DNA of 21,942 nucleotides from positions 1-21,942 of the IMG/VR virus record IMGVR_UViG_3300020131_000011; one strand, given 5' to 3'. The notes beneath the pieces are model-generated. The model was not told where the DNA came from, did no database searches, and saw only the letters and a program-made list of their open reading frames with translations. Source of the DNA: a virus. Position numbers and translations under genes: made by a program. This document shows positions 2,645 to 21,942 of this stretch, piece by piece. The first letter of the stretch is position 1; each line of letters opens with the position of its first letter.

Positions 2645-3190
2645 CTAAGCCGATAGCGCTTTCACGGCTAACGCATGCAGCGCCAGCCTATCCTCATACC
2701 CGTTGAGTCCGCCGTTGATACGCTTTGTGATTGTGCGGAAGTACCCCATATCAGCAAGCTCGTTCAAGCCCGTGTTCCACCAGTACCAGGCTGCTGATAA
2801 GGATGCGTACTGTGGCTCCTCCAGCAGCTCGGGCTTTGCAACGAGGTCAAGCTCGAGGGCGATACCGCAAAGGAGGTAATTTCGTTTCCCTGTAATCTGG
2901 ATAAGGCCCCTGCCCTTGTATAAGCGCCCGTCGTCATCGTCCTCGGGAGTGTTGCCTAGTGAGACAGCTTTGCGACCCGTGTCGTAAGCTTCGCCGCTGG
3001 CCAATTCCCGAACGTACCGAAGCCTTCCCGACTCGTGCCCCACTTGGGCCAGGAAAACTGCTTGACGCTTGGGTGTATTGATTTCGAAACGTTCCATCGC
3101 CCGGTTAATGTGGGCAACCCATTTCACAGCCCGTTCCATTGGGCATTCCATGGCTCGGGAGAGTTGGAGCGCTGTTATATCGTTGTTCAT
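2645..3190 (-). CDS. Endolysin, glycoside hydrolase family 19 (chitinase-like) type
   Basis: The 181-residue protein cuts cell-wall glycan at lysis. It has the hallmarks of GH19-type phage lysins: FLAQVGHESGRLRYVRE (46-62) with the probable catalytic Glu53, the substrate-groove motif YKGRGLIQITGKRNY (91-105), and the later ITKRINGGLNGYEDR (154-168). Length is typical for a single-domain lysin. No signal peptide or SAR anchor is present, so it should depend on a holin. Its start overlaps the stop of the putative holin by four bases (ATGA), the usual holin-lysin coupling. No spanin (Rz/Rz1) pair is found beside it in the window. Confidence 0.9.
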   Translation of the reverse strand: MNNDITALQLSRAMECPMERAVKWVAHINRAMERFEINTPKRQAVFLAQVGHESGRLRYVRELASGEAYDTGRKAVSLGNTPEDDDDGRLYKGRGLIQITGKRNYLLCGIALELDLVAKPELLEEPQYASLSAAWYWWNTGLNELADMGYFRTITKRINGGLNGYEDRLALHALAVKALSA

Positions 3191-3588
3191 AATTTAGTTA
3201 GGAACGCCCTTAGCCACCCGCTGATACCGAATGCCATCAAGCCAACGACCAGGGCAAGTATCCAAAAGATGCCGCGTCGGAAAAGTTCGTTTCTTAAATC
3301 GGAATAGAATTTTGCCCGCTCGGTTTCACTTTGAATCATGATTTCGTGGGCTTTGCGGTGCCCATTGGGGTCACCATTTGGAAAAGCATCACTGAGGATT
3401 CGGTCGATTCGTTCCCGTTCCTCGAGTAGGTGGGTTTCGAACTTTCGCTCGTTGCTGTCTACTCGGGAAAGGACTTCTGTTTGACGGGAGGCTATGATTT
3501 GCAGCAGGGCGACAACTTCTTCGGGGCAGGTCTTTCTTGCATCTGCGACCATTTGTTCAATGTTATCTTGTGTTTCTTTTTCACCCAT
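3187..3588 (-). CDS. Putative holin or lysis-associated membrane protein
   Basis: The 133-residue protein has a long charged, helix-prone N-terminal part with probable coiled coil (about residues 35-65), the segment FPNGDPNGHRKAHEIM, and one C-terminal membrane segment at about 106-127 (IFWILALVVGLMAFGI). This is the layout of many unnamed phage membrane proteins found next to endolysins; XhlA-type proteins have a similar plan but are shorter. Here it lies immediately upstream of the lysin and overlaps it by four bases, so holin is the best guess. A single-span holin would be of the class III kind. A GGGGGG ribosome binding site precedes the start. Membrane topology is confident; pore function is inferred from position alone. 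Confidence 0.7.
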   Translation of the reverse strand: MGEKETQDNIEQMVADARKTCPEEVVALLQIIASRQTEVLSRVDSNERKFETHLLEERERIDRILSDAFPNGDPNGHRKAHEIMIQSETERAKFYSDLRNELFRRGIFWILALVVGLMAFGISGWLRAFLTKL

Positions 3589-4265: not shown

Positions 4266-6803
4266 TTAAGTCCTTCTGATGATTGTTCCGGAAGCAGGGT
4301 ATCCCCTGCCGTTGATTGCTGACATCTGGTACACATTAAAATTGACCACCTCGGGAACTGGATTTGATGGGTCTTGTATCTGCCAGACGTTAGTCCCGTT
4401 ACTGGATACTCCAGGCCCAGCATATAAGACTCCATCATGCGCATAAAGGGCACGGACGAAAGCTGCTCCGTTCCATCCGCCACTAACCCCATCCCCTCCG
4501 ACCTTAGTCCAGCTTGTACCGTTCCAAGACCAGACTTCTCCTTCGTCGGCGCTTTCACCAAGGCCTACATATAGCACCCCACTTAGGACGGTCATGGTGT
4601 ACGCATACTCATGAGCACTTGCCCAGCTTCCGTTTAAGGAGTCGCCCCCGATTTTAGTCCAGGCTGTGCCGTTCCATCTCCATACCTCGGCGTCCCCTGC
4701 GCTATCACCAAGACCGGCATAGATATATGTCCCATCCTGAGCAAGCGAACGGATGCGCTCGTACCCAGCACCCCAGCTAGAATTTACACTGTCCCCGCCA
4801 ATCTTGGTCCAGCTAATAGAACCAACAGGGGTTGACCAGACTTCGGCGTCGTTGGCGCTGTTACCTATGCCTACATATAATGTGGTGCCCATAATCACCA
4901 TCGTCTGGACAACTTCGTAATCAGTATTCCAGCTCGAGTTCAGTCCATCCCCGCCAATCTTTTCCCAGACCGTTCCGTTCCATCTCCAAACTTCCGCACC
5001 GCCCGCTGAAGCTCCAAGACCTGCGTAAAGGTACGTCCCGTCTTCTATCATGGACCTGACCATATCGTAAGTTGCTGGCCAGCCTGAATTGAGCCCGTCG
5101 CCCCCAACTTGCGTCCAGACTATTCCGCTCCCGCTATACCTCCAGACGTCTGCATATCCGGTGAGAGTGTAATATGTGCCCACATACAGCGAGCCGGCGT
5201 AAACAGTCGGAGCAAACACTTCCAGATAGCTTGTCGAGTTTATGAAAATGGAGGTCAGTGTGGTGCCGTCCCATAGGTACACCTGCCCGCTTCCTCCGGA
5301 TATGCCCCCTGTTGTTATGACCAGGTATCCATTCCAGTACGTCAGCCCTATAACATAATCAGGGAAGCCGTCTATATCAAAATCCGCGTTGTCAAGTATC
5401 TGTAGCCATGAAGGGGCACCGAAGTCGGAAAGCTGGAGAGCCCTGGTATAATCAAATGTGGAACTTGTGGACTCATATGTATTTACTAGCTCGCCCAACT
5501 CGTCGACGATGTCTATTTCATATGCTTCCGTTTGCTCGCTCATTGGGACGTCGACATAGTCGCGCCAATCTGCATACAGTCTGTTCCGGCGAACCCAGTT
5601 TATCGTGACGTCGCCTGTTGCGTTCCGCTCGACTGCAAAGGCATGGACAGGAGCGTAGCATTCCTGGCCTACGTTCTGGAACGTGAAGGACGACTCCTCA
5701 GTGTCCTGTATGATGTCGTTTAACGTGACGACCTTGTAAAGGCGTTCTTGAGGGATGTCGGTGCTGGGTAGCGCTAGGCGGATAAGAGCGAAGTCCAACA
5801 GGACAACCCTATCCCCTTCCGCATGCGTACTGATTGCCCATTCTGTTCCCCTGCGGCCACGAAGCAGCCCGCTGATTTCGTATATACCTTCATCAAGCTG
5901 TTCCGCGTTCTTGAACTGCAATACCTCGTCACCCACTAACAGAGCGTTAGCTCCGTTCAATACAGCGAGCTCTGTCGTGCTGCTTAATTCTCCGCCGTAT
6001 GGGAAGCGAACAATAAGGGTATTGGTCTCGTCGAATATGTCGGCACGTCCTACCCCAAGGACATCACGGGTGAACCCGAATATGGAAGCAGTGAACACCC
6101 CGTCAAGCTGTTGGTAGGTTAGCCCGTTATCAGAGGACTTGAAAACAACAGCCCCTTCCCATCCATCATTCCGGCCCGCGGCAGCCACATAGATTCCAAT
6201 GCCTTCGTCCGTATCCCGAAGCAGTGCAATATCAAGCAGCTCGTACCGACTCTTAGCCAGCGGGTACAGGACTTGGTCGTCGAACTCGCCCCCATCCCCT
6301 TCCGAATTGGAGATGTACTGGGAAGCTTCGTCCGGAACGCATTGCAATCCAATAACCCCGTTCGAGTTGTCATCAGTTGCCAGAACATAATACTGGTGAA
6401 CTGCGACATCTGTTTCCACAAGTATGACGTCCGTCGGCTCGATGAACTTGTATTTATTGTTCAGCTTTAGCTGGGCCATGTTGCGCGAGACCCAGGCGTT
6501 ATAAAGTACGCTGTCAGCAATCTGCTTCGCGTGGTTAGCTGTCAACACGACTTGGACATCGATGCCTATCTTGTTAATGCTGCCGCCCGTCATGCGCTGG
6601 CTATGCTGGACCCCAGTCTGGTAATCGTGGTCCTGGCTGATATATCCAATCTGCACTTCCTTCGGCATCTCAGCTTCCTGAGTGCGTTCGATAGCGATTA
6701 AGTCTTCGACGTTACCGATTGACTCGCTTGCTGCCAGGTCGTCTTGATGAATAGTGACAGCGGGTGCCCCGCCACGTTTCACGAATTTGATTTTAGCGGC
6801 CAT
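4266..6803 (-). CDS. Tail-tip protein, C-terminal half (GTA-gp15/J-like) with inserted beta-propeller
   Basis: This 845-residue ORF looks like the second half of a GTA-gp15-type host-specificity protein. Residues 1-80 (KIKFVKRGGAPAVTI, then EMPKEVQIGYISQDHDYQTG) continue a domain begun in the ORF upstream. About 85-460 include the tip domains, with ISGLLRGRRGTEWA (310-323) and an FN3-like stretch ending FDYTRALQLSDFG. In relatives this runs almost directly into the strand seen here at 818-835 (VVNFNVYQMSAINGRGYPA). Instead about 350 residues intervene: a beta-propeller-like repeat of some seven units, five nearly regular at about 50 residues each (EVWRWNGT, W-TKIGGD, LYxGxG). The start ATG 6801-6803 follows the upstream stop TAA directly and in the same frame, with GGAAAG seven bases before that TAA-ATG junction. 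Scaffold family confident; propeller role (receptor or glycan contact) inferred. Confidence 0.85.
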   Translation of the reverse strand: MAAKIKFVKRGGAPAVTIHQDDLAASESIGNVEDLIAIERTQEAEMPKEVQIGYISQDHDYQTGVQHSQRMTGGSINKIGIDVQVVLTANHAKQIADSVLYNAWVSRNMAQLKLNNKYKFIEPTDVILVETDVAVHQYYVLATDDNSNGVIGLQCVPDEASQYISNSEGDGGEFDDQVLYPLAKSRYELLDIALLRDTDEGIGIYVAAAGRNDGWEGAVVFKSSDNGLTYQQLDGVFTASIFGFTRDVLGVGRADIFDETNTLIVRFPYGGELSSTTELAVLNGANALLVGDEVLQFKNAEQLDEGIYEISGLLRGRRGTEWAISTHAEGDRVVLLDFALIRLALPSTDIPQERLYKVVTLNDIIQDTEESSFTFQNVGQECYAPVHAFAVERNATGDVTINWVRRNRLYADWRDYVDVPMSEQTEAYEIDIVDELGELVNTYESTSSTFDYTRALQLSDFGAPSWLQILDNADFDIDGFPDYVIGLTYWNGYLVITTGGISGGSGQVYLWDGTTLTSIFINSTSYLEVFAPTVYAGSLYVGTYYTLTGYADVWRYSGSGIVWTQVGGDGLNSGWPATYDMVRSMIEDGTYLYAGLGASAGGAEVWRWNGTVWEKIGGDGLNSSWNTDYEVVQTMVIMGTTLYVGIGNSANDAEVWSTPVGSISWTKIGGDSVNSSWGAGYERIRSLAQDGTYIYAGLGDSAGDAEVWRWNGTAWTKIGGDSLNGSWASAHEYAYTMTVLSGVLYVGLGESADEGEVWSWNGTSWTKVGGDGVSGGWNGAAFVRALYAHDGVLYAGPGVSSNGTNVWQIQDPSNPVPEVVNFNVYQMSAINGRGYPASGTIIRRT
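4380..5144 (-). repeat. Tandem beta-propeller blade repeats within the tip protein
   Basis: Five in-frame units of about 150 bases encode blades of the form EVWxWNGTxWTKIGGDxxNxSW followed by a variable strand and YxGLGxSAxxA (residues about 554-808). Two less regular units at residues 482-553 precede them. The copies differ by many bases, so they are established protein repeats, not a recent DNA expansion. The pattern of Trp, GGD and LYVG strands suggests a seven-bladed propeller of the tachylectin or kelch kind. Confidence 0.75.
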
Positions 6804-13777: not shown

Positions 13778-14254
13778 TTACGCCTTCCAAGACCAGCTAA
13801 CTACACCGCTCCGCTGAACCACCAGGGTGCCCCGAACGATTTCGTTGGTAGCGATATCGATATTCACATCGGACACATAACCTTGGAACGCTGCGAAAGT
13901 GCGGGTGGTTGGGTACTCGAAATTGTCGCCGTCGGAATTAACGGTTGGGACATCGGCACCATCGGACAAGCCAATCGCCCATTGCAGGTTACGACCATCT
14001 TCCTTCAAGTCGAACAGGATTTGATGGGAGAACTGCACTGGGTCGAAGTTGAACGGAACGTTAACAGCGCCAGGATTACCCAGACCACGAAGGAAGCTGC
14101 GGTCGGTGTCGTCCAAGCAGGTGCTGTCGATTTGGTCAGCTGGGCCGCCCAGACCAGTGATACCAGTAGGGCAGTGAAGCTTCAAGACCGCTGGGATTGC
14201 GGTACTGTAAGAGTCAAGCAAAAATAATGCTGAACCTTGGGTACGAATTGCCAT
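13778..14254 (-). CDS. Major tail protein (tail tube subunit)
   Basis: The 158-residue protein sits immediately upstream of chaperones G/GT and the tape measure, the canonical place for the tube subunit. It starts MAIRTQGSALFLLDS and contains the phrases LKLHCPTGITGLGGPADQIDST and DRSFLRGLGNPG, then beta-rich strands (VNVPFNFDPVQFSHQILFDL) and an ending VQRSGVVSWSW, all typical of short lambda-gpV-like tube proteins. It should assemble as stacked hexamers around the tape measure. A strong AGGAG lies eight bases before ATG 14254. In the 47-base gap before it, TTGTTG and TATTAG with a 17-base spacer form a weak possible extra promoter. Confidence 0.9.
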   Translation of the reverse strand: MAIRTQGSALFLLDSYSTAIPAVLKLHCPTGITGLGGPADQIDSTCLDDTDRSFLRGLGNPGAVNVPFNFDPVQFSHQILFDLKEDGRNLQWAIGLSDGADVPTVNSDGDNFEYPTTRTFAAFQGYVSDVNIDIATNEIVRGTLVVQRSGVVSWSWKA

Positions 14255-14301: not shown

Positions 14302-14886
14302 TCACTCTGCAAACGCTGGTATCCAGTGCGGCACCCCACCAATAAATATCCTCAGCCATTTTGCTGGGGAGATGTTAGCTGGAGCGTTTGTGGCCGCGAA
14401 TGTCGCAGTACCTGTTCCAGCGGGTACATCCAATCCGATGATATTCAGTTCGGGTGTAGTGAACGAAATAGTTACATCTTGATTTCCGTCTAGCGTTATC
14501 CCGATATTTTCAGCTCCTATATTATGCTGATATAAGGAGCCGCTTCCATCGCCGCTGATGGTCACGTCATCAGTAGCCCAAAACGATGAACCATTTCCGC
14601 CAACGTACTGTTGTTTCTGGTAACTGGATGATAAATCATTAGCATTAACCAATTCAGTTATCAAGCTGCCGTCGAAACTCCCAACAAAAGGACGAGCATT
14701 CATCTCTCTATATGTTATGCCCTCCTCTGTGTAGAATTTATAGTTGCTTAATCTTCCTCCCCAGATGGATTCGGAACGTATGCTAACCTCCGAGTCGGTT
14801 GCGTTCTGTGTAGCTACAGCCCCGAAGCCCCCGCCTCCCCCGCCTCCACCACCTCCGCCTGTTCCACCTATAATTAAACGAGCCAT
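14302..14886 (-). CDS. Virion protein with poly-glycine N-terminus (short form)
   Basis: The 194-residue protein begins MARLIIGGT followed by eleven glycines, exactly as the 458-residue protein encoded just upstream does; the two then share no obvious sequence. The body is Ser/Thr/Asn/Gly-rich and beta-prone, with phrases such as SFDGSLITELVNANDLSS and GDGSGSLYQHNIGAENIGITL, and ends AKWLRIFIGGVPHWIPAF. No signal peptide, enzyme motif or membrane span is seen. It lies between the tail-completion genes and the tube gene, so a virion decoration or tail accessory role is likely. GGAG stands ten bases before the start, similar to the spacing for its neighbour. Function inferred from position only. 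Confidence 0.75.
   Translation of the reverse strand: MARLIIGGTGGGGGGGGGGGFGAVATQNATDSEVSIRSESIWGGRLSNYKFYTEEGITYREMNARPFVGSFDGSLITELVNANDLSSSYQKQQYVGGNGSSFWATDDVTISGDGSGSLYQHNIGAENIGITLDGNQDVTISFTTPELNIIGLDVPAGTGTATFAATNAPANISPAKWLRIFIGGVPHWIPAFAE
14827..14886 (-). repeat. Poly-glycine N-terminal module, copy 2
   Basis: The first 20 codons encode MARLIIGGT plus eleven Gly. Against the copy at 16228-16287 all 20 residues are the same, yet 13 of the 20 codons differ, every one at the third base. The shared codons include TTA Leu, ATA Ile and ACA Thr. Confidence 0.85.
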
Positions 14887-14910
14887 ATCATCTATTCTCC
14901 ATTACAAGGG

Positions 14911-16287
14911 TTATCTGTCCGAACTGTAATCGGTGTAGAGCCGCATCCAGTCGATGTCTATTGTTTGACCAATGCTTGTGCCACCAACTATGAAGGCTCC
15001 TAGAGTGAATCCCGCCGTCGGGAGTGATGCGAAATTATAATCAGCGAACAGATTACCGTTTATATACAACCTCGTCCTCCCAGTGGAAGGGGTTATTCTC
15101 ATCAAATATTTATTATACGACCCAAATGTTATAGGGAAAGTACCTGAGATACTTACAGAACTCTCTACCCCAGCAACCCAAGAACGAAGTCCGAACCTAT
15201 TATTATCGGCAGGGTAGCTGTAGCTCACCGCAACGCCGTTCTGTGGTTGGGCATCCGCTTGGTCAATGAACCCGATATAGATTCCCCCTTGATTGGATGC
15301 GTTATATACCTGGCCTATACTCATTGACCATTCTAGATTCACTTCGTCTGAGGAAGCTGTGTCTAGGAAGAACACTTCAGTGCTAACGGAAGCATCCTGT
15401 GAGAGAGTAAACCCGCACCGTTCGCTCGACAGCAACCCAACGTCAGGAACTAGCCGGATAATGCCTGGTCGTTTAGCAGTACCAGGCAACAGCGTGACAG
15501 CACCCCCATTCGCTGTGAACGTGCTCAAGTTGGGGATTGTTGTCCCGCCAAAACTTACAAAGTCTTGAATAAGACCAAACCGCTTGGCTGGATTCTCTAG
15601 CTCAGTTTCGTTAGGACCAATGCCCCATGCCCCATCCCCTTTAAGATATAGGGCAGCTGAAGGAGTGCCCGTGCCAAGGGATTCCACATTTATCTGTACG
15701 GGGACTCCAAGTTCGTCTTTAATCGAAAGCTTGTTGTTGTTCTCAGCGGTGATATGCGCCTGGTTTAACCCTCCGCTACTAAACAGAGCAATGGGTCTAG
15801 TAAACTGAAAAAATTCGTTAGTTAGCTCAATCTTCGCACCGGATGAACCTATCTGGAGAGTCATCTTTGGGTCAGGCTGTGAAGCTCCCCCGGTTATCTG
15901 GAAATTATTAGCACTCCAAATCGAAGCGACATTGGTTGGGTCAATTGAGCCGTCCATGTAGAATTCATATAACCAATTCTCTTCAGAATCGGTTATAAAC
16001 CAATCGTATCCCGCGTCGAATTCAGTAGGTGGTGGAAGGACAGTCTTATGAGTTATAAATTCGACGCCCCAGTTGTCCGGTTCGCCAGTGCCCCAAATGA
16101 CATTCGATGCACCATCAACAGCGAACTTTCGTACCCCAGCTACAGACCCTTCAAAAAGTCCTGGCAGGGAATTCTCTACATCCGGAGGGATAATCTTGAA
16201 GGTATAGTCGCCAAGCGTTATCTCGCTGCCGCCACCACCGCCGCCTCCGCCTCCGCCACCTGTACCTCCTATGATTAACCGGGCCAT
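14911..16287 (-). CDS. Virion protein with poly-glycine N-terminus and lectin-like C-terminus (long form)
   Basis: The 458-residue protein starts MARLIIGGT plus eleven glycines, then continues with beta-rich sequence. Middle parts (IGSSGAKIELTNEFFQF and AHITAENNNKLSIKDELG) look like fibre or spike repeats. The last 130 residues (about 315-455: LEWSMSIGQVYNASNQGGIYIGFID, here split, then YLMRITPSTGRTRLYINGN and IDIDWMRLYTD) have the strand order and motifs of concanavalin or laminin-G-like lectin domains, which often bind sugars. No enzyme motif is apparent. The gene lies between a 111-aa unknown and its short partner. A receptor- or surface-glycan-binding virion protein is the best inference; whether it sits on head or tail cannot be told. 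Confidence 0.75.
   Translation of the reverse strand: MARLIIGGTGGGGGGGGGGGSEITLGDYTFKIIPPDVENSLPGLFEGSVAGVRKFAVDGASNVIWGTGEPDNWGVEFITHKTVLPPPTEFDAGYDWFITDSEENWLYEFYMDGSIDPTNVASIWSANNFQITGGASQPDPKMTLQIGSSGAKIELTNEFFQFTRPIALFSSGGLNQAHITAENNNKLSIKDELGVPVQINVESLGTGTPSAALYLKGDGAWGIGPNETELENPAKRFGLIQDFVSFGGTTIPNLSTFTANGGAVTLLPGTAKRPGIIRLVPDVGLLSSERCGFTLSQDASVSTEVFFLDTASSDEVNLEWSMSIGQVYNASNQGGIYIGFIDQADAQPQNGVAVSYSYPADNNRFGLRSWVAGVESSVSISGTFPITFGSYNKYLMRITPSTGRTRLYINGNLFADYNFASLPTAGFTLGAFIVGGTSIGQTIDIDWMRLYTDYSSDR
16228..16287 (-). repeat. Poly-glycine N-terminal module, copy 1
   Basis: Codons 1-20 of the 458-residue protein encode the same peptide as codons 1-20 of the 194-residue protein (14827-14886). 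The boundary of similarity falls straight after the glycine run, where the proteins continue with SEITLG here and FGAVAT there. Confidence 0.85.
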
Positions 16288-16293
16288 GATTGT

Positions 16294-16626
16294 TTAGTCC
16301 TCGCGATACTGTACGTCAATCATGCAGTCGGCAGCACCAGCGGTCAAAGTGTCCGCTGTACTGGAGTTGCAAACCACAATCCCGTTCACAAAGTGGCGAC
16401 CATAGGGAGCGTAGTCCAAGGAAAAGCTTTCGCCGGACGGGACTTTGAACGAGACAGCAGGTGTCGCCCCTGCGGACGGGGCTTCTGCTGCGTCATGTAT
16501 TTGGATAAACTGGTCCGCTCCGGTGTTAATCCCAGTTAGGCCAAACAATCGACCCGAGCGAGTCATCGCCACAACACTTGCAGCAAGCCCGTCACTGTTC
16601 GCATTCTTCATAAAACCGTTTAACAT
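16294..16626 (-). CDS. Small phage structural protein, unknown
   Basis: Two ATG codons are adjacent (16629 and 16626). AAGGAG is only three bases from the first and six from the second, so I chose the second; the product is then 110 residues. It is beta-prone and rich in small residues, with IVVCNSSTADTLTAGAADCMIDVQY near the end (broken by eye into strands), a phrase seen in many unnamed phage structural proteins. It sits between the DUF3168 tail-completion gene and the poly-glycine proteins, six bases before the next start. It may be a decoration or tail accessory protein. No specific function can be given. Confidence 0.65.
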   Translation of the reverse strand: MLNGFMKNANSDGLAASVVAMTRSGRLFGLTGINTGADQFIQIHDAAEAPSAGATPAVSFKVPSGESFSLDYAPYGRHFVNGIVVCNSSTADTLTAGAADCMIDVQYRED

Positions 16627-16636
16627 CATATTCTCC

Positions 16637-16993
16637 TTATCTGTTCAAGAAATAATCGAACTGCAATGCAACTCGGAAAAGCTTTGTATCAAACTCGCGT
16701 TCATTTGCCAGGTGTTGCGTCATATGGCAGTGCGGCTCCAAGGCGTTGCGAACTGCGATTGCTAACTGCTTCACCTGCTTTTCTTCCTTGCTGTAGCAGT
16801 CAACCTGTACGACTTGCCTGTCCACAGTAGGCAGTTCCGAAAGCGTGTTCTCGGGTGCGCCCGCTGGGACAGACCAGACCACGTAAGGCTTGGATGTGTC
16901 CTGAACAGCCTGGCCGCTACCGTAAACCCGAGTCTGGACCAGTGTGGTCACATCGGGCGCTGCGGTTAAGATATCAAAGACCGGAGGAAACAT
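16637..16993 (-). CDS. Tail completion/terminator protein, DUF3168 family
   Basis: The 118-residue protein matches the DUF3168 pattern: an N-terminal helix PPVFDILTAAPDVTTLVQTRV with YGSGQAVQDTSKPYVVW, the strand VDRQVVQVDCYS, a helix KEEKQVKQLAIAVRNALEP and a C-terminal strand FRVALQFDYFL. In HK97-like and SPP1-like phages (gp17 group) this protein caps the tail and joins it to the head. Gene order agrees, since it follows the HK97 gp10-like gene by three bases and precedes the tube gene. Length is normal. Confidence 0.88.
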   Translation of the reverse strand: MFPPVFDILTAAPDVTTLVQTRVYGSGQAVQDTSKPYVVWSVPAGAPENTLSELPTVDRQVVQVDCYSKEEKQVKQLAIAVRNALEPHCHMTQHLANEREFDTKLFRVALQFDYFLNR

Positions 16994-17740: not shown

Positions 17741-18223
17741 TTAGGTCATTTTATTAAACGCGACAACGCTGTAACTCCAGCACAAATCGCGCTCACTATT
17801 GATGACATTTACAAAGCCCAAGTCCTCGACTAACTTACGCATATCGTCAGGATGCCACTGGTGCAAGTGTTTACGATTGTTCTGCGGCAGCCAGTACTCC
17901 ATATCCGGATGCGGAAGATAAAGAAACAGCACCCCACCGTCAACGAGTCTACTTTTCCAATGCAGCAGGGCTTTCACCGGGTCGGTTAGATGCTCCAAAC
18001 AATGACTAGAGAAGATGTAATCAAATTTATCGTCCGGCAAAGCTTCCGCGGTTGCCCCATGCCGTTTCTCTATGGGGATAGCCCAACCCAAAGGCCAATC
18101 CCCGCATCCTATGTCAAGCCCGCGCCCCTTGCAGAACTGTTCAGCAAATGGAGTGGCGAAGCGGGCTGCATTGCCTTCCTTCAAGTACTGTGGATACAGT
18201 TTGCCCTTGTACTCGTATATCAT
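17741..18223 (-). CDS. SAM-dependent methyltransferase (class I)
   Basis: The 160-residue protein has the class I fold signals: motif I GLDIGCGDWPLG (about 35-46, the SAM-binding loop), the acidic strand end FDYIFSSHCLEHLTDP (67-82) and the LVDGGVLFLYLPHPD segment (93-107). It resembles Methyltransf_11-type enzymes, which methylate sugars, lipids or small molecules. The missing usual C-terminal domain makes it a compact form. It overlaps the GT29-like gene by four bases and closes a four-gene sugar cassette, so methylation of a glycan, on the virion or the host surface, is the likely role. Substrate cannot be read from sequence. Confidence 0.85.
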   Translation of the reverse strand: MIYEYKGKLYPQYLKEGNAARFATPFAEQFCKGRGLDIGCGDWPLGWAIPIEKRHGATAEALPDDKFDYIFSSHCLEHLTDPVKALLHWKSRLVDGGVLFLYLPHPDMEYWLPQNNRKHLHQWHPDDMRKLVEDLGFVNVINSERDLCWSYSVVAFNKMT

Positions 18224-18897
18224 TTTCTTCCCCTCTCCAAGCTCTCCAGTAATGTGTCGTCCATGATAAGCGGGTACTTACTTTTGTTTTCGATTATCCA
18301 GTCGCGCTCCCTGTTCGGCTCGTGACGGATTGGGTCTGCTTGATTTGTAGGTACCCACTTTTCATCCCCATTGTGAATCCTTGATTCAAAGAAGTCGAAC
18401 CCAGTTAAGTAGACTGCGGCAGGGTTGAACGCAAGGATGTCCAGCAAAGCAGCAAACCCAGTAGTCGGAATATGGTTACCCAACAGCGCGAACTTTTTCA
18501 TGAATTCTTCGCGGGTTGGGATGTAGACTGGGCAAAACCACCAGCGCCTCCGTGCGATGTATATGTATTGGAAATGCACCCCGTTCATCCTGCCGTGGCG
18601 CTTATGCCAATCCGTTACCGGGATGGAATCGTCTGGGCACTTGGCCATGCAAAGCGTCACACCATCTTTTTGTAACTGCTCGGAAGTTTTGGAAATGTTC
18701 ACCCCGAAGTAGCTGTAGAAGATATCCGTCCGTTGCCCGCTACCCTGCGCGAGCTTGTAATTATTCACACGAACGACAACGTGATGCGAATCAATATACC
18801 CGGGCTCATTAAGGAAAGCGCTTGGGCCGCCACCCACTAGCGCCACCCTTTGCCCCTCGATGATTGACCGGACATGCTCCCTACTGCAAGAATTCAT
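18220..18897 (-). CDS. Sialyltransferase-like glycosyltransferase (GT29-type motifs)
   Basis: The 225-residue protein has motif order like GT29 and its bacterial or viral relatives: nucleotide-binding VALVGGGPSAFLN (18-30), VVVRVNNYK (40-48), TDIFYSYFG (57-65), TTGFAALLDIL (145-155), YLTGFDFFES (163-172) and a late IRHEPNRERDWI (190-201) with the probable catalytic-base His192. True family members move sialic acid from CMP-sialic acid, but distant members may use other sugars, so donor and acceptor are unknown. It overlaps its upstream neighbour by 17 bases and the methyltransferase by four. No signal peptide or membrane span, so it should work in the host cytoplasm. Confidence 0.75.
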   Translation of the reverse strand: MNSCSREHVRSIIEGQRVALVGGGPSAFLNEPGYIDSHHVVVRVNNYKLAQGSGQRTDIFYSYFGVNISKTSEQLQKDGVTLCMAKCPDDSIPVTDWHKRHGRMNGVHFQYIYIARRRWWFCPVYIPTREEFMKKFALLGNHIPTTGFAALLDILAFNPAAVYLTGFDFFESRIHNGDEKWVPTNQADPIRHEPNRERDWIIENKSKYPLIMDDTLLESLERGRK

Positions 18898-19657
18898 TTG
18901 CCACCCACCTTATCTCTTCTTCTGTTGCGGAGTCTATCACATACTTGGAATTCTTGTGGTGATGAATCTTCTCTGGTGTTATTTGCTGGATATATGGGAC
19001 GGGCGATTTAAGTCCGCGTTTGCTCCAGACTGTCAGCGACGGTTTTCCGAAGCACTCTGCTAGAGGGTTCATAAACGAGCAATGCCCTATAAAGCCTTTG
19101 GCGACCTTAGCCATGTCCAGCAGGTCTTTGACGCTTGTCTTTCCAGCTAAGTCCAGAGTCACCCCGTCGAACTTGTGAAGGGGCTTGCCATTGCCCATTT
19201 GAATGATGTTGTAATTCTTTGATATCTCGTCTATCGCAAGTTGCATCTTGCTGAAGTTGGGGAGCAGCTCCATCCCAAAGCCGTCGTTCCTATTCATGGG
19301 AGGACGTACCATTTGCAAGACAACAAACGGCTGGAACCTTTCAAGTATCTGGAGCAATTCGTAATTCTGCGCCCGCCAGCTTATCATCAGCGGGATGTCC
19401 TGCGGCAGCCCTGCGCTGATACAGCAGTCTTGAAATTGAGTTGTTCCTTTAATAGGCTTGCGCTGGGCATAATGGGCAAGGATGTCCACATTATTCCGGC
19501 TGAACTTCTCGGTCGTGCAATCTAGCTGGCTGAATACGTCGGGATAATCAGTTAGAGCTACGACCTTCTTCCCCCGAGTTAATAAATAATCGACTATGGC
19601 TTGCAGGTAAAGCGCATCCCCTAGCCCCCGCCCACTTCTGATTCTAAGACCTGACAT
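18881..19657 (-). CDS. Heptosyltransferase-like (GT9-type) glycosyltransferase
   Basis: I chose ATG 19657 because GGGGGA lies just upstream; a start at 19678 would only add residues without a better signal. The 258-residue protein begins GLRIRSGRGLGDALYLQAIV, the GxGD-type opening of GT9 (ADP-heptose LPS heptosyltransferases), followed by KKVVALTDYPDVF. Its C-terminal half has MAKVAKGFIGHCSFMNPLAE and FGKPSLTVWS, the usual sugar-donor region of this GT-B fold. It is shorter than cellular GT9 enzymes (about 320-350), so one domain may be reduced. Overlap with the neighbouring genes is 37 and 17 bases. Transfer of a sugar to lipopolysaccharide or a virion glycan is possible; donor unknown. Confidence 0.7.
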   Translation of the reverse strand: MSGLRIRSGRGLGDALYLQAIVDYLLTRGKKVVALTDYPDVFSQLDCTTEKFSRNNVDILAHYAQRKPIKGTTQFQDCCISAGLPQDIPLMISWRAQNYELLQILERFQPFVVLQMVRPPMNRNDGFGMELLPNFSKMQLAIDEISKNYNIIQMGNGKPLHKFDGVTLDLAGKTSVKDLLDMAKVAKGFIGHCSFMNPLAECFGKPSLTVWSKRGLKSPVPYIQQITPEKIHHHKNSKYVIDSATEEEIRWVANEFLQ

Positions 19658-20238
19658 ATTTCCCCCAATGGAAAACAATCCAAAGCTGTTTCCCGGCTAC
19701 AGTTTATAATTTCGATGCCTTGCCTCTTTGCGTAAGAAGCAAGCGCTTTGAATTGACTCGGCCAACGGGCGATTGAGTTGCAGTTGGATAAGGGCTTCGG
19801 ATGTTCACCGTGCCAGTGCGACTTCCCGTCTGCTTTCTTTGCATCATACCCCAGCAAGATGATTCTTTTAGCCTTGCCCGCTATTGCGAGCGATATTGCA
19901 TTCGTGCCGGAGTTCCCGAAGTTGGAGAACCATCCCTTACCATGAACAGACAGGGCGCCATATGAACCGCCCGACATCCAGCTGGTCACCCTAATACCGC
20001 GAAACGTTTTATCTACCTGAGCCCGGTATGCATGCCACCAAGCCCCGTCGAAAGCGTAAAGCACATCCGCCCATGGGCACCGCTCGAACGTGTTGTTCGT
20101 GACGATTGTCGGGAGCCCCGATTGCCGTACCAGCTCGCAGTCCTGTTCCGTTAGGCTTGGGCCACTTGCAATGCAAACAACCGTTCTTCCGGACCATAGA
20201 CCTTTTAACTGGTCAATCTTCAACCGCATCCCCAACAT
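19621..20238 (-). CDS. DUF115/GT42-like putative glycosyltransferase
   Basis: I chose ATG 20238: GAGG lies nine bases upstream. GTG 20247 and ATG 20229 are weaker options. The roughly 205-residue product has a Rossmann-like opening TVVCIASGPSLTEQDC and GLPTIVTNNTFERCPWADVLYAFD, then GNSGTNAISLAIAGKAKRII, LLGYDAKKADGKSHWHGEHP. This is the pattern of DUF115/MAF-type and GT42-like proteins, common in phages, with a SHWHGDHP-type motif. Such proteins transfer sugars or use nucleotide-sugar-like substrates, but activity is rarely shown. It starts 26 bases inside the end of the head-tail joining gene, as the first gene of the sugar cassette. Assignment is by motif recall. Confidence 0.7.
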   Translation of the reverse strand: MLGMRLKIDQLKGLWSGRTVVCIASGPSLTEQDCELVRQSGLPTIVTNNTFERCPWADVLYAFDGAWWHAYRAQVDKTFRGIRVTSWMSGGSYGALSVHGKGWFSNFGNSGTNAISLAIAGKAKRIILLGYDAKKADGKSHWHGEHPKPLSNCNSIARWPSQFKALASYAKRQGIEIINCSRETALDCFPLGEICQVLESEVGGG

Positions 20239-20566
20239 AAGCCACACCCTCGGACGCCATAAGAGTCAGGTAATGCAACCCGCTATTTGGGTCGGGCAGT
20301 ACAGCTTCTATCTTATACACTTTGCCGCGGAATACTGCGCGAATTCCGGGTTTAAACTTGTCGTTATAACGGACAGTCATGCGGGTATTTAATTGGCTTT
20401 GAACAGCTTGCGATGAAAGATACTCGCGCCCGGATACAGGGGCAACTTCCGTCGAGATGGGATACCCAAACAAATCAACCCAAGTCTCTACCCGGTCCCC
20501 CTCCGAATCTATCTGGGTGAAAAGTTCTTGGAACTCTACCTTGTGACGTAAGCGCCCGGCTCTCAT
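20213..20566 (-). CDS. Head-tail joining protein (Phage_H_T_join / SPP1 gp16-like)
   Basis: The 117-residue protein has the family start MRAGRLRHKVEFQELFTQID, the conserved VETWVDLFGYPISTEVAPVSGREY (split by eye), the beta strand RMTVRYNDKFKPGIRAVFRGKVYKIEAV and the ending YLTLMASEG. Members form the stopper ring below the connector. It overlaps the gp6-like gene by four bases (ATGA) and precedes, after an overlap, the sugar cassette. Length typical. Confidence 0.92.
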   Translation of the reverse strand: MRAGRLRHKVEFQELFTQIDSEGDRVETWVDLFGYPISTEVAPVSGREYLSSQAVQSQLNTRMTVRYNDKFKPGIRAVFRGKVYKIEAVLPDPNSGLHYLTLMASEGVAYVGDAVED

Positions 20567-21198
20567 GCTAGTGACATCCGAATTTGATGTGGTTTAAGCA
20601 GGGAGCGGACGCCGTTTGCAATAGCCACGAGGGGCTTGTCCGCAACGTCTTCCCGGTTTTCGTACAAGTGCCCAAGCTGCAACAGTATTGCGGCCTTGAT
20701 AGTGAAAGGAAGCGGGCCTAATGCATCGCTGCCCATTGCGGCAGCCCTATATGTAATCCGGATTTCCGCGTTGGGCTCGCTGTTGCGTAGGCTTGGCCAT
20801 TGCGTGACTGGGTAGACTGTATTCGTATATGGGCTAAACGTGAAGTCAACAGCAGCATCACTTCCCTCACCGAAACTGAAGTTGGTGATTTCCGCTACTG
20901 GCCCAAAAGGAAGAACAATGCCTCCGTTATCCGATGGGAACGAGTCAATAACGGCCATGATGGTCTTTTCCGTTAGGCTCATGCCTAGATAGTTCTCACA
21001 GGCCTGGCGGGCTGCCGACAAATATAGAGCAACCAGAGAATCGTCCGGATGCCCGTCGCTATCTATTGGGTCGAGTCGCAAGTGCGCCCGGCATTCCTCG
21101 AGTGTTAAGGGCTCCTCAGTTGTTTCACTCAGCACCATCACCCGCGTGGCGCTGCCAGGATATGTGAGCTGGTTCCGGCTCCAGGTATGCCTTCTCAT
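20563..21198 (-). CDS. Head-tail connector, HK97 gp6-like
   Basis: The 211-residue protein carries the gp6-like adaptor hallmarks: PLTLEECRAHLRLD near residues 30-43, DDSLVALYLSAARQACENYLG (52-72), then beta strands giving NGGIVLPFGPVAEITNFSF and a C-terminal helix ending LLQLGHLYENRED. The family forms a ring on the portal that the head-tail joining protein docks to. The start at 21198 overlaps the collagen-like stop by four bases. A shorter start at residue 21 (MVLSETTEEP) is possible, and it would remove a poorly conserved basic leader. Confidence 0.9.
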   Translation of the reverse strand: MRRHTWSRNQLTYPGSATRVMVLSETTEEPLTLEECRAHLRLDPIDSDGHPDDSLVALYLSAARQACENYLGMSLTEKTIMAVIDSFPSDNGGIVLPFGPVAEITNFSFGEGSDAAVDFTFSPYTNTVYPVTQWPSLRNSEPNAEIRITYRAAAMGSDALGPLPFTIKAAILLQLGHLYENREDVADKPLVAIANGVRSLLKPHQIRMSLA

Positions 21199-21942
21199 AG
21201 CTTCTTCCCTTTGTGGTCGATTATCGTTAAGTCGCGACCCGGCTCTCCCTTGTCGCCCTTCAGACCATCCTTGCCATCCCGGCCTCGCTTAACTGCAAGC
21301 TGCCAATCGGAGTCACCATCACCTGGTCGAGTTTCGGTGCTGTCTGCTTTGCATATCCATAACGAGCCGTCACGAGTCACAGTTTCGTTCTTCTTGAACG
21401 TACCGTCTTTCCAGATGCCCCTGTAAACCATAACAGGGAAGTGCAACTCTTTGGTCATGCGCTTGCTCGTGGTGTTGAAGTTAAGGACCACACGGTTGTC
21501 GTCGTCCTGCGTTACTTCGATGCTCTCCAGCCCTTCAACTACCACAACCCAGCCAGCTTTCTCAATCTCTTCGACGCCGGATAGCTTATCCGTGTCACGG
21601 AAGGAGCGGACAATGCCCCCGCGATGCCGTGCGTATGTATTGCGATGGTAAGTGCGCTCTGGGTCAAGGCCGTCCAGAATTTCCAGTTGCAGCGCATCGC
21701 GCCCATCCCGACCTGCTTCCCCCTTGTCGCCCTTATCGCCTTTCTCCCCATTCTTCGGAACTGGAATTGCCTTAACAGCTTCCTCGACTAATGTATGGAT
21801 AATAGGCTCGACATCTTCGACTGTGACTGACTTGCCGTCTTCCCCGTTCTTGGGAGCTGGGATTGCTTTGATGTAATTGCCGACCAGTTCCTCCAGTGCG
21901 GGCATTACTTCTTCCATCGTCACTGACTTACCGTCCGCGCCA
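21195..21942 (-). CDS. Collagen-like phage protein, 5' end cut by right edge
   Basis: The frame stays open to the right edge, so this is the C-terminal part of a longer protein; GTG 21923 is only an internal valine codon. Two copies of a 32-residue unit, GKSVTxEDVxPxxxxLVxxxxKAIPxPKNGE, are seen, followed by collagen-type triplets (EKGDKGDKGEAGRDGRD) and, near the end, GRDGKDGLKGDKGEPGRD. Between the two triplet blocks lies a globular part with YRGIWKDGTFKKNETVTRDGSLWIC, which resembles a chitin- or carbohydrate-binding CBM5/12 strand pattern. It precedes the connector genes, so it belongs to the head region; head decoration or fibre is plausible. Confidence 0.8.
   Translation of the reverse strand, partial: GADGKSVTMEEVMPALEELVGNYIKAIPAPKNGEDGKSVTVEDVEPIIHTLVEEAVKAIPVPKNGEKGDKGDKGEAGRDGRDALQLEILDGLDPERTYHRNTYARHRGGIVRSFRDTDKLSGVEEIEKAGWVVVVEGLESIEVTQDDDNRVVLNFNTTSKRMTKELHFPVMVYRGIWKDGTFKKNETVTRDGSLWICKADSTETRPGDGDSDWQLAVKRGRDGKDGLKGDKGEPGRDLTIIDHKGKKL

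Follow-up and report, generated by a model that had tools for sequence, protein, structure and literature searches.

A fibre-like cassette within the tail module

The DNA analyzed here, referred to as the window, is the whole of IMG/VR record IMGVR_UViG_3300020131_000011 (21,942 bases). Its minus strand carries a tail module that runs from the portal end through connector, head-tail joining, gp10-like and tail terminator genes to three unknown genes, a lambda-like tail tube protein, a chaperone, a tape measure and the tail tip. The module also holds genes that, from the look of their sequence, we take to be glycosyltransferase-like and methyltransferase-like. A four-gene set at 17741-20247, between the head-tail joining and gp10-like genes, presumably comprises three glycosyltransferase- or DUF115-like genes and one methyltransferase-like gene; all four were matched in order in loci L036, L080 and L098, and the last one also in L072. 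Elsewhere in the window, a tail protein with Rcc01698_C (4266-6803) has kelch-like repeats WRWNGTVWEKIGGDGLNSSW in its second half, and the portal-like C-terminus at 21195-21923 (phrog_1289) also has collagen-like GDKGDKGEAGRDG repeats. On the plus strand, opposite the tail module, a Gly-rich protein with a signal-peptide-like start and no Pfam match is encoded at 592-1263.

The three unknown genes form a cassette whose upstream edge is the tail terminator gene (16637-16993, minus strand; phrog_78 and PF11367) and whose downstream edge is the tail tube gene (13778-14254, minus strand; phrog_158 and PF16460). The gene next to the terminator, u111 (16294-16629, minus strand), encodes a small, apparently all-beta protein that we propose as a socket on the basis of family alignments, an AlphaFold2 model and fold comparison. 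Directly after it lies B458 (14911-16287, minus strand), an ORF for an orphan fibre-like protein, followed by A194 (14302-14886, minus strand), an ORF for a second orphan protein with the same start. Searches for relatives of the B458 and A194 bodies returned nothing useful, and B458 folded without relatives gave an unusable model (pLDDT 35). We also rejected the idea of a common fibre C-terminus in A194, the corresponding pattern giving no matches among the ORFs of all loci compared. We infer that both are virion genes, as an earlier note on this DNA had called them, from their position between the tail terminator and tail tube genes.

The locus was compared with 73 loci encoding related tail tube proteins, in 70 of which both the terminator and the tube gene could be placed (the exceptions being L073, L103 and L104). 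In all 70 measurable relatives the gap between these two genes spans 18-159 bases and holds no gene, vs. 2.4 kb containing u111, B458 and A194 in the window. Relative to 70/70 relatives, the cassette u111-B458-A194 is inserted as a unit. These close relatives lack the whole cassette and so offer no copies of the peptide described below for comparison. One of 69 relatives (L098) has an extra gene (~4819-5530) between the gp10 and tail terminator genes (752 bases), one gap upstream of the position of the window cassette, which suggests more than one site for cargo genes in the neck region.

The shared start of A194 and B458

Residues 1-20 of the two proteins are identical and consist of MARLIIGGT followed by eleven Gly (16228-16287 in B458 and 14827-14886 in A194, both minus strand). 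The codons of the two copies differ at 13 of 20 positions, always in the third base, so that 47 of the 60 bases are identical and the longest in-register run of shared DNA is 8 bases. Over residues 2-20, six of 19 codons are identical, vs. 5.0 expected for independent draws from the codon usage of the window, indicating that synonymous sites are saturated. Together with the perfect peptide, this saturation means that the peptide, and not the DNA, was conserved. Any common ancestry of the two starts has left no trace at synonymous sites, and selection on the peptide explains their identity. Beyond the start, BLASTP detects no significant similarity between the bodies (best E 0.26). These results reproduce what the earlier note had reported, namely the common 20 residues, the exact count of third-position differences, the complete divergence of the bodies and conservation at the protein level. 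As to its statement that the DNA has drifted, two identical 60-base repeats at a distance of 1.4 kb would be open to recombination, and selection against such a direct repeat may have contributed to the divergence by speeding codon change.

We hold with high confidence that this is a real shared start under selection; chance does not produce, in two genes side by side, a common 20-mer whose Gly runs are equally long. Slippage as the source of the Gly run was likewise rejected, since codons are mixed in both tracts. A processing signal of the double-glycine leader type was considered as a further candidate reading. Each protein has a single run of five or more Gly, located at the start, and all six frames of the window contain no others. 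Across the viral collection, in a scan that may omit records very near the window, the motif RLIIGGTGGG matched no further record, and within that scope this record alone has the exact MARLIIGGT-G11 peptide. A comparable pair of genes with a common start was seen at no other locus examined.

Glycine runs of similar appearance are common elsewhere. GGT-G9 without a start codon gave at least 120 stretches, and 125 such runs that we examined, five of them from genome matches or L005, were mostly linkers inside longer proteins; the genome collection contributed five matches, none of them a phage gene start. The looser pattern M-x5-GGT-G5 yielded 31 stretches, mostly internal or unrelated, with L004 and L005 as the most convincing starts of the MARLIIGGT-Gly kind. 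In the record of L005 (L239), a capsid-like gene and neck-like genes are followed by the 112-residue protein P0001 (1050-1385) and then by MSGFYT-GGT-G11, whose start codon overlaps the P0001 stop. P0001 is probably a relative of u111, judging from hhalign (probability 63, E 7e-5 for a single comparison). By their sequence, we take the later genes of L239 to resemble genes of tail-sheath phages. In the record of L004 (L240), MIEYIT-GGT-G8 follows a short protein that the test applied did not identify as a u111 relative.

The u111 family and the genes behind it

The earlier note had not recognized the gene upstream of B458, u111, as the likely partner of the peptide. u111 itself matched neither PHROGs nor Pfam. 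Three successive scans of viral contigs recovered 5, 38 and then 129 relatives, of which 80 were kept from the third. Among 27 family members, no PHROGs family was found, and Pfam at a weak limit gave DUF7134 in five, Ecotin in two and DHDPS in one, matches that we take as chance. The family had no match among PDB sequences. An AlphaFold2 model built from 67 sequences is predicted with confidence as all-beta (mean pLDDT 94.5, pTM 0.87). Foldseek returned no PDB match with an E of 0.001 or lower; the weaker ones that it lists include jelly rolls of viruses, trimers of the C1q type and the HFTV1 turret. VIA-align likewise gave no match at Z 8 or more. It ranked a baseplate cup chain of a Klebsiella phage highest (Z 6.7, under 8) and also listed Ena2A (6.6), the HFTV1 turret (6.5), F-BclA (6.3), KHP40 cement (6.0) and, at 5.7, ExsF with the F-Anchor peptide.

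The best viral model is U6C862 (TM 0.88, 41% identity), an uncharacterized protein of Ralstonia phage RSK1, which is described in the excerpted source as a temperate podophage (PMC10975493). Phages with u111-type domains would include a siphophage in the window, a podophage by the RSK1 match and perhaps a myophage in L239. An isolate-rich phage collection gave one match only, to an uncultured 485-kb record with a u111 relative as query; here the domain is present and the gene behind it has no strand-type start. In the same record (L341), two nearby proteins (592-1737 and 2761-3288), separated by a further ORF, each have a u111-like domain at their end. Locus L251 encodes proteins of 147 and 150 residues, ~3.2 kb apart, that both start M[TP]LTPCEPCNC[IV]PG, the second of which contains the u111 domain. 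Among 399 Burkholderiales genomes, two had u111 matches: one (L339) is followed by MGTMVVSPSG, a similar start that lacks the Leu or Ile required by the patterns, and the other (L340) has no fibre behind it.

Genes directly behind u111-type genes tend to have a short, hydrophobic, strand-like start of the same kind, e.g., MSLIISP. In 38 family loci, the next gene frequently began MALNITG, MPLVITP, MGLVISP, MSLFISP or MAKLSIG, and further examples were MALLISG, MALIITP, MAELDITP and MKLDITP. A simple gene caller placed the next gene in 31 of the 38; in the seven that it missed (L248, L254, L256, L264, L273, L275 and L276), MAKLSIG occurs four times and MALTITP and MKLDITP once each, while the remaining start, MAFTEFY, is without the pattern. 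After removal of repeats, a leave-one-out profile separated 28 training starts from 138 other genes (AUC 0.81, p 1e-7). Three patterns, rx1-rx3, were written after these starts had been seen, and their training counts are accordingly biased (rx1, 19/28 vs. 20/138; rx2, 18/28 vs. 8/138; rx3, 16/28 vs. 3/138).

The hold-out set comprised 46 loci outside the first set, with the next gene placed in 42, leaving 41 starts after repeat removal, and was run with a slightly altered start-codon rule. The frozen profile again distinguished these starts from 222 other genes (AUC 0.765, p 3.6e-8), as did the frozen patterns (rx1, 18/41 vs. 18/222, p 1e-7; rx2, 10/41 vs. 15/222, p 0.0016; rx3, 9/41 vs. 5/222, p 3e-5). 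More than half of the hold-out neighbours fall outside the patterns, rx3 being missed by 32 of 41. When both sets were pooled (69 starts) and set against 141 fibre-like genes, chosen by our own composition rule, and 1822 other genes of unrelated loci, rx3 occurred in 25 vs. 3 and 14, rx1 in 37 vs. 11 and 106, and rx2 in 28 vs. 11 and 81, respectively. Clustered by body (residues 13 on), 73 downstream proteins fell into 49 unrelated clusters, of which 18 contain rx3, 20 rx2 and 26 rx1. In some of these proteins, e.g., in L243 and L260, the start passes straight into collagen repeats. MARLIIGGT, which was outside the training set, outscored 99.7% of background starts on the profile, as well as each of the 24 other genes of the window that were tested. 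The glycine starts of L239 and L240 fail rx1-rx3, and the score of MSGFYT is reached by 18% of background starts.

A proposed docking peptide, its alternatives and known systems

The earlier note had proposed a shared attachment peptide, which predicts that similar starts with unrelated bodies should recur behind u111 homologues. That part is supported by the family, as is its suggested search for MARLIIGGT-Gly starts insofar as the strand pattern recurs on unrelated bodies; the exact sequence was not found elsewhere. We consider it rather probable that an N-terminal docking peptide plugs interchangeable B458 and A194 fibres into a u111 socket with the Gly run as spacer, and our confidence that the start is a docking peptide at all is moderate. 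Residues 2-6 (ARLII) would form a short hydrophobic strand, ended by GGT, and the eleven Gly a flexible or polyglycine-type spacer. The strand would plug into a site on u111, encoded just upstream and probably an oligomer; the candidate u111-binding peptide is MARLIIGGTGGGG. B458 and A194 would then be two interchangeable fibre-like bodies with one plug, addressing the same kind of site and either mixed on one virion or in competition. Binding itself, the oligomeric state of u111, a location near the neck or the tail and the targets of the two bodies are all points that we infer. The docking reading draws on peptide identity at saturated synonymous sites, the position of the cassette, the unrelated bodies, the family-wide link of strand-like starts with u111-type neighbours, the high profile score of MARLIIGGT, the glycine start behind the probable u111 relative in L239 and the predicted beta fold of u111. 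Counter to it stand the majority of hold-out neighbours outside the patterns, the glycine starts of L239 and L240, which fail the patterns, the protein before the L240 start, the two Burkholderiales cases, the 485-kb phage, whose domain lacks such a start behind it, the lack of a second locus with a paired start and the fold matches of u111, all under Z 8.

Among the alternatives, it is unlikely, if conceivable, that the peptide anchors both proteins to another virion part, such as the tail tube, terminator or neck, with u111 a mere neighbour, e.g., a decoration protein. The cassette does sit between the terminator and tube genes, and the pattern is absent from many u111 neighbours. Yet strand-like starts associate with u111-type neighbours across many unlike phages, also on the hold-out set, and the corresponding gap is empty in 70 relatives that share the terminator and tube genes, giving no sign of such a site on either protein. 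We regard as quite improbable a short Gly-rich tip that faces and binds the host, in the manner of glycine-rich brush or adhesin domains. GGT-G9 after a hydrophobic strand is indeed frequent inside adhesin-looking phage proteins, and the excerpted account of brush domains describes them as glycine-rich with exposed hydrophobic patches (PMC13243795). Those runs, however, are mostly internal and accompanied by several Gly motifs, whereas A194 and B458 have a single run at the start, and side fibres are described in the same excerpt as attaching via their N-terminal domain (PMC13243795). Least probable of all is that a copied gene start was fused to another body and persists as a functionless relic: partial duplication would give two adjacent genes with identical starts, but a relic peptide would be lost before synonymous sites became saturated, and the equal run length and mixed codons argue against slippage.

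The docking reading can be extended, more tentatively and at somewhat less than even likelihood, to u111-type proteins as a widespread socket of tailed phages that takes a hydrophobic plug, such that any plugged fibre body could be swapped and the DNA of the two window plugs was possibly driven apart against recombination. If true, two fibres with an identical plug would allow a test of whether they are displayed together or in competition on one virion. The range of bacteria open to a phage depends on fibre swapping, and a short start that marks a fibre of this socket would expose fibre genes in uncultured phages with unmatched bodies. A socket role would also give a function to a small beta family that is absent from PHROGs and the PDB.

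Several known systems resemble this arrangement in part. According to the excerpted source, N-terminal peptides of down to seven residues attach receptor-binding proteins in Klebsiella phages and in K1E/K1-5/SP6, and two proteins of one phage may share one adapter (PMC6872550). The hepta- and undecapeptides of K1E/K1-5/SP6 and the heptapeptide MALxxLV of the KP34 group are short conserved N-terminal peptides on different bodies, the feature by which the K1-5/KP34 type is recognized and which A194 and B458 also display. In that type, as the excerpt has it, the partner is encoded by the same phage, and here the candidate, u111, lies directly upstream, as a putative partner. The adapters described there have a T4 gp10-like domain and the bodies are depolymerases, whereas here the neighbour is a small beta protein of an unnamed family and the bodies are orphans; u111 had no PDB sequence match to tie it to the T4 gp10-like domain, and its top fold row is the baseplate cup chain (see above). 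A194 and B458 further differ in that both plugs are identical and have eleven Gly behind them.

Among spore proteins, the excerpted source describes an F-ENA hook (MP-hydrophobic-hydrophobic-x-P) that docks in the cleft between beta-trimer subunits, an F-Anchor leader peptide in Bacillus ExsF that docks in a beta-trimer cleft, and collagen-like stalks behind the docking peptide in F-Anchor and F-BclA (PMC11952670). ExsF and F-BclA are among the weak fold matches of u111; a sequence relation was not seen, and DUF4183, the F-ENA head domain, is absent from the Pfam matches of u111 and 27 family members. The HFTV1 turret and KHP40 cement are small beta-sandwich virion-surface proteins among the fold matches, again with no sequence relation, and a Z under 8 may mean a common arrangement only. 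In glycine-rich brush and adhesin domains, several glycine-rich stretches form one domain, unlike the one run in each of A194 and B458. Searches of open-licence literature gave no papers for MARLIIGG, nor did they return the u111-type neighbour family, the glycine spacer or the doubled identical plug. By analogy, the A194/B458 start may well work like the docking peptides of the K1-5/KP34 type and the Bacillus F-ENA hook: a short docking peptide is, as a working idea, already known and ordinary in principle, and what is new here are its parts, namely the neighbour family, the Gly spacer and the doubled plug.
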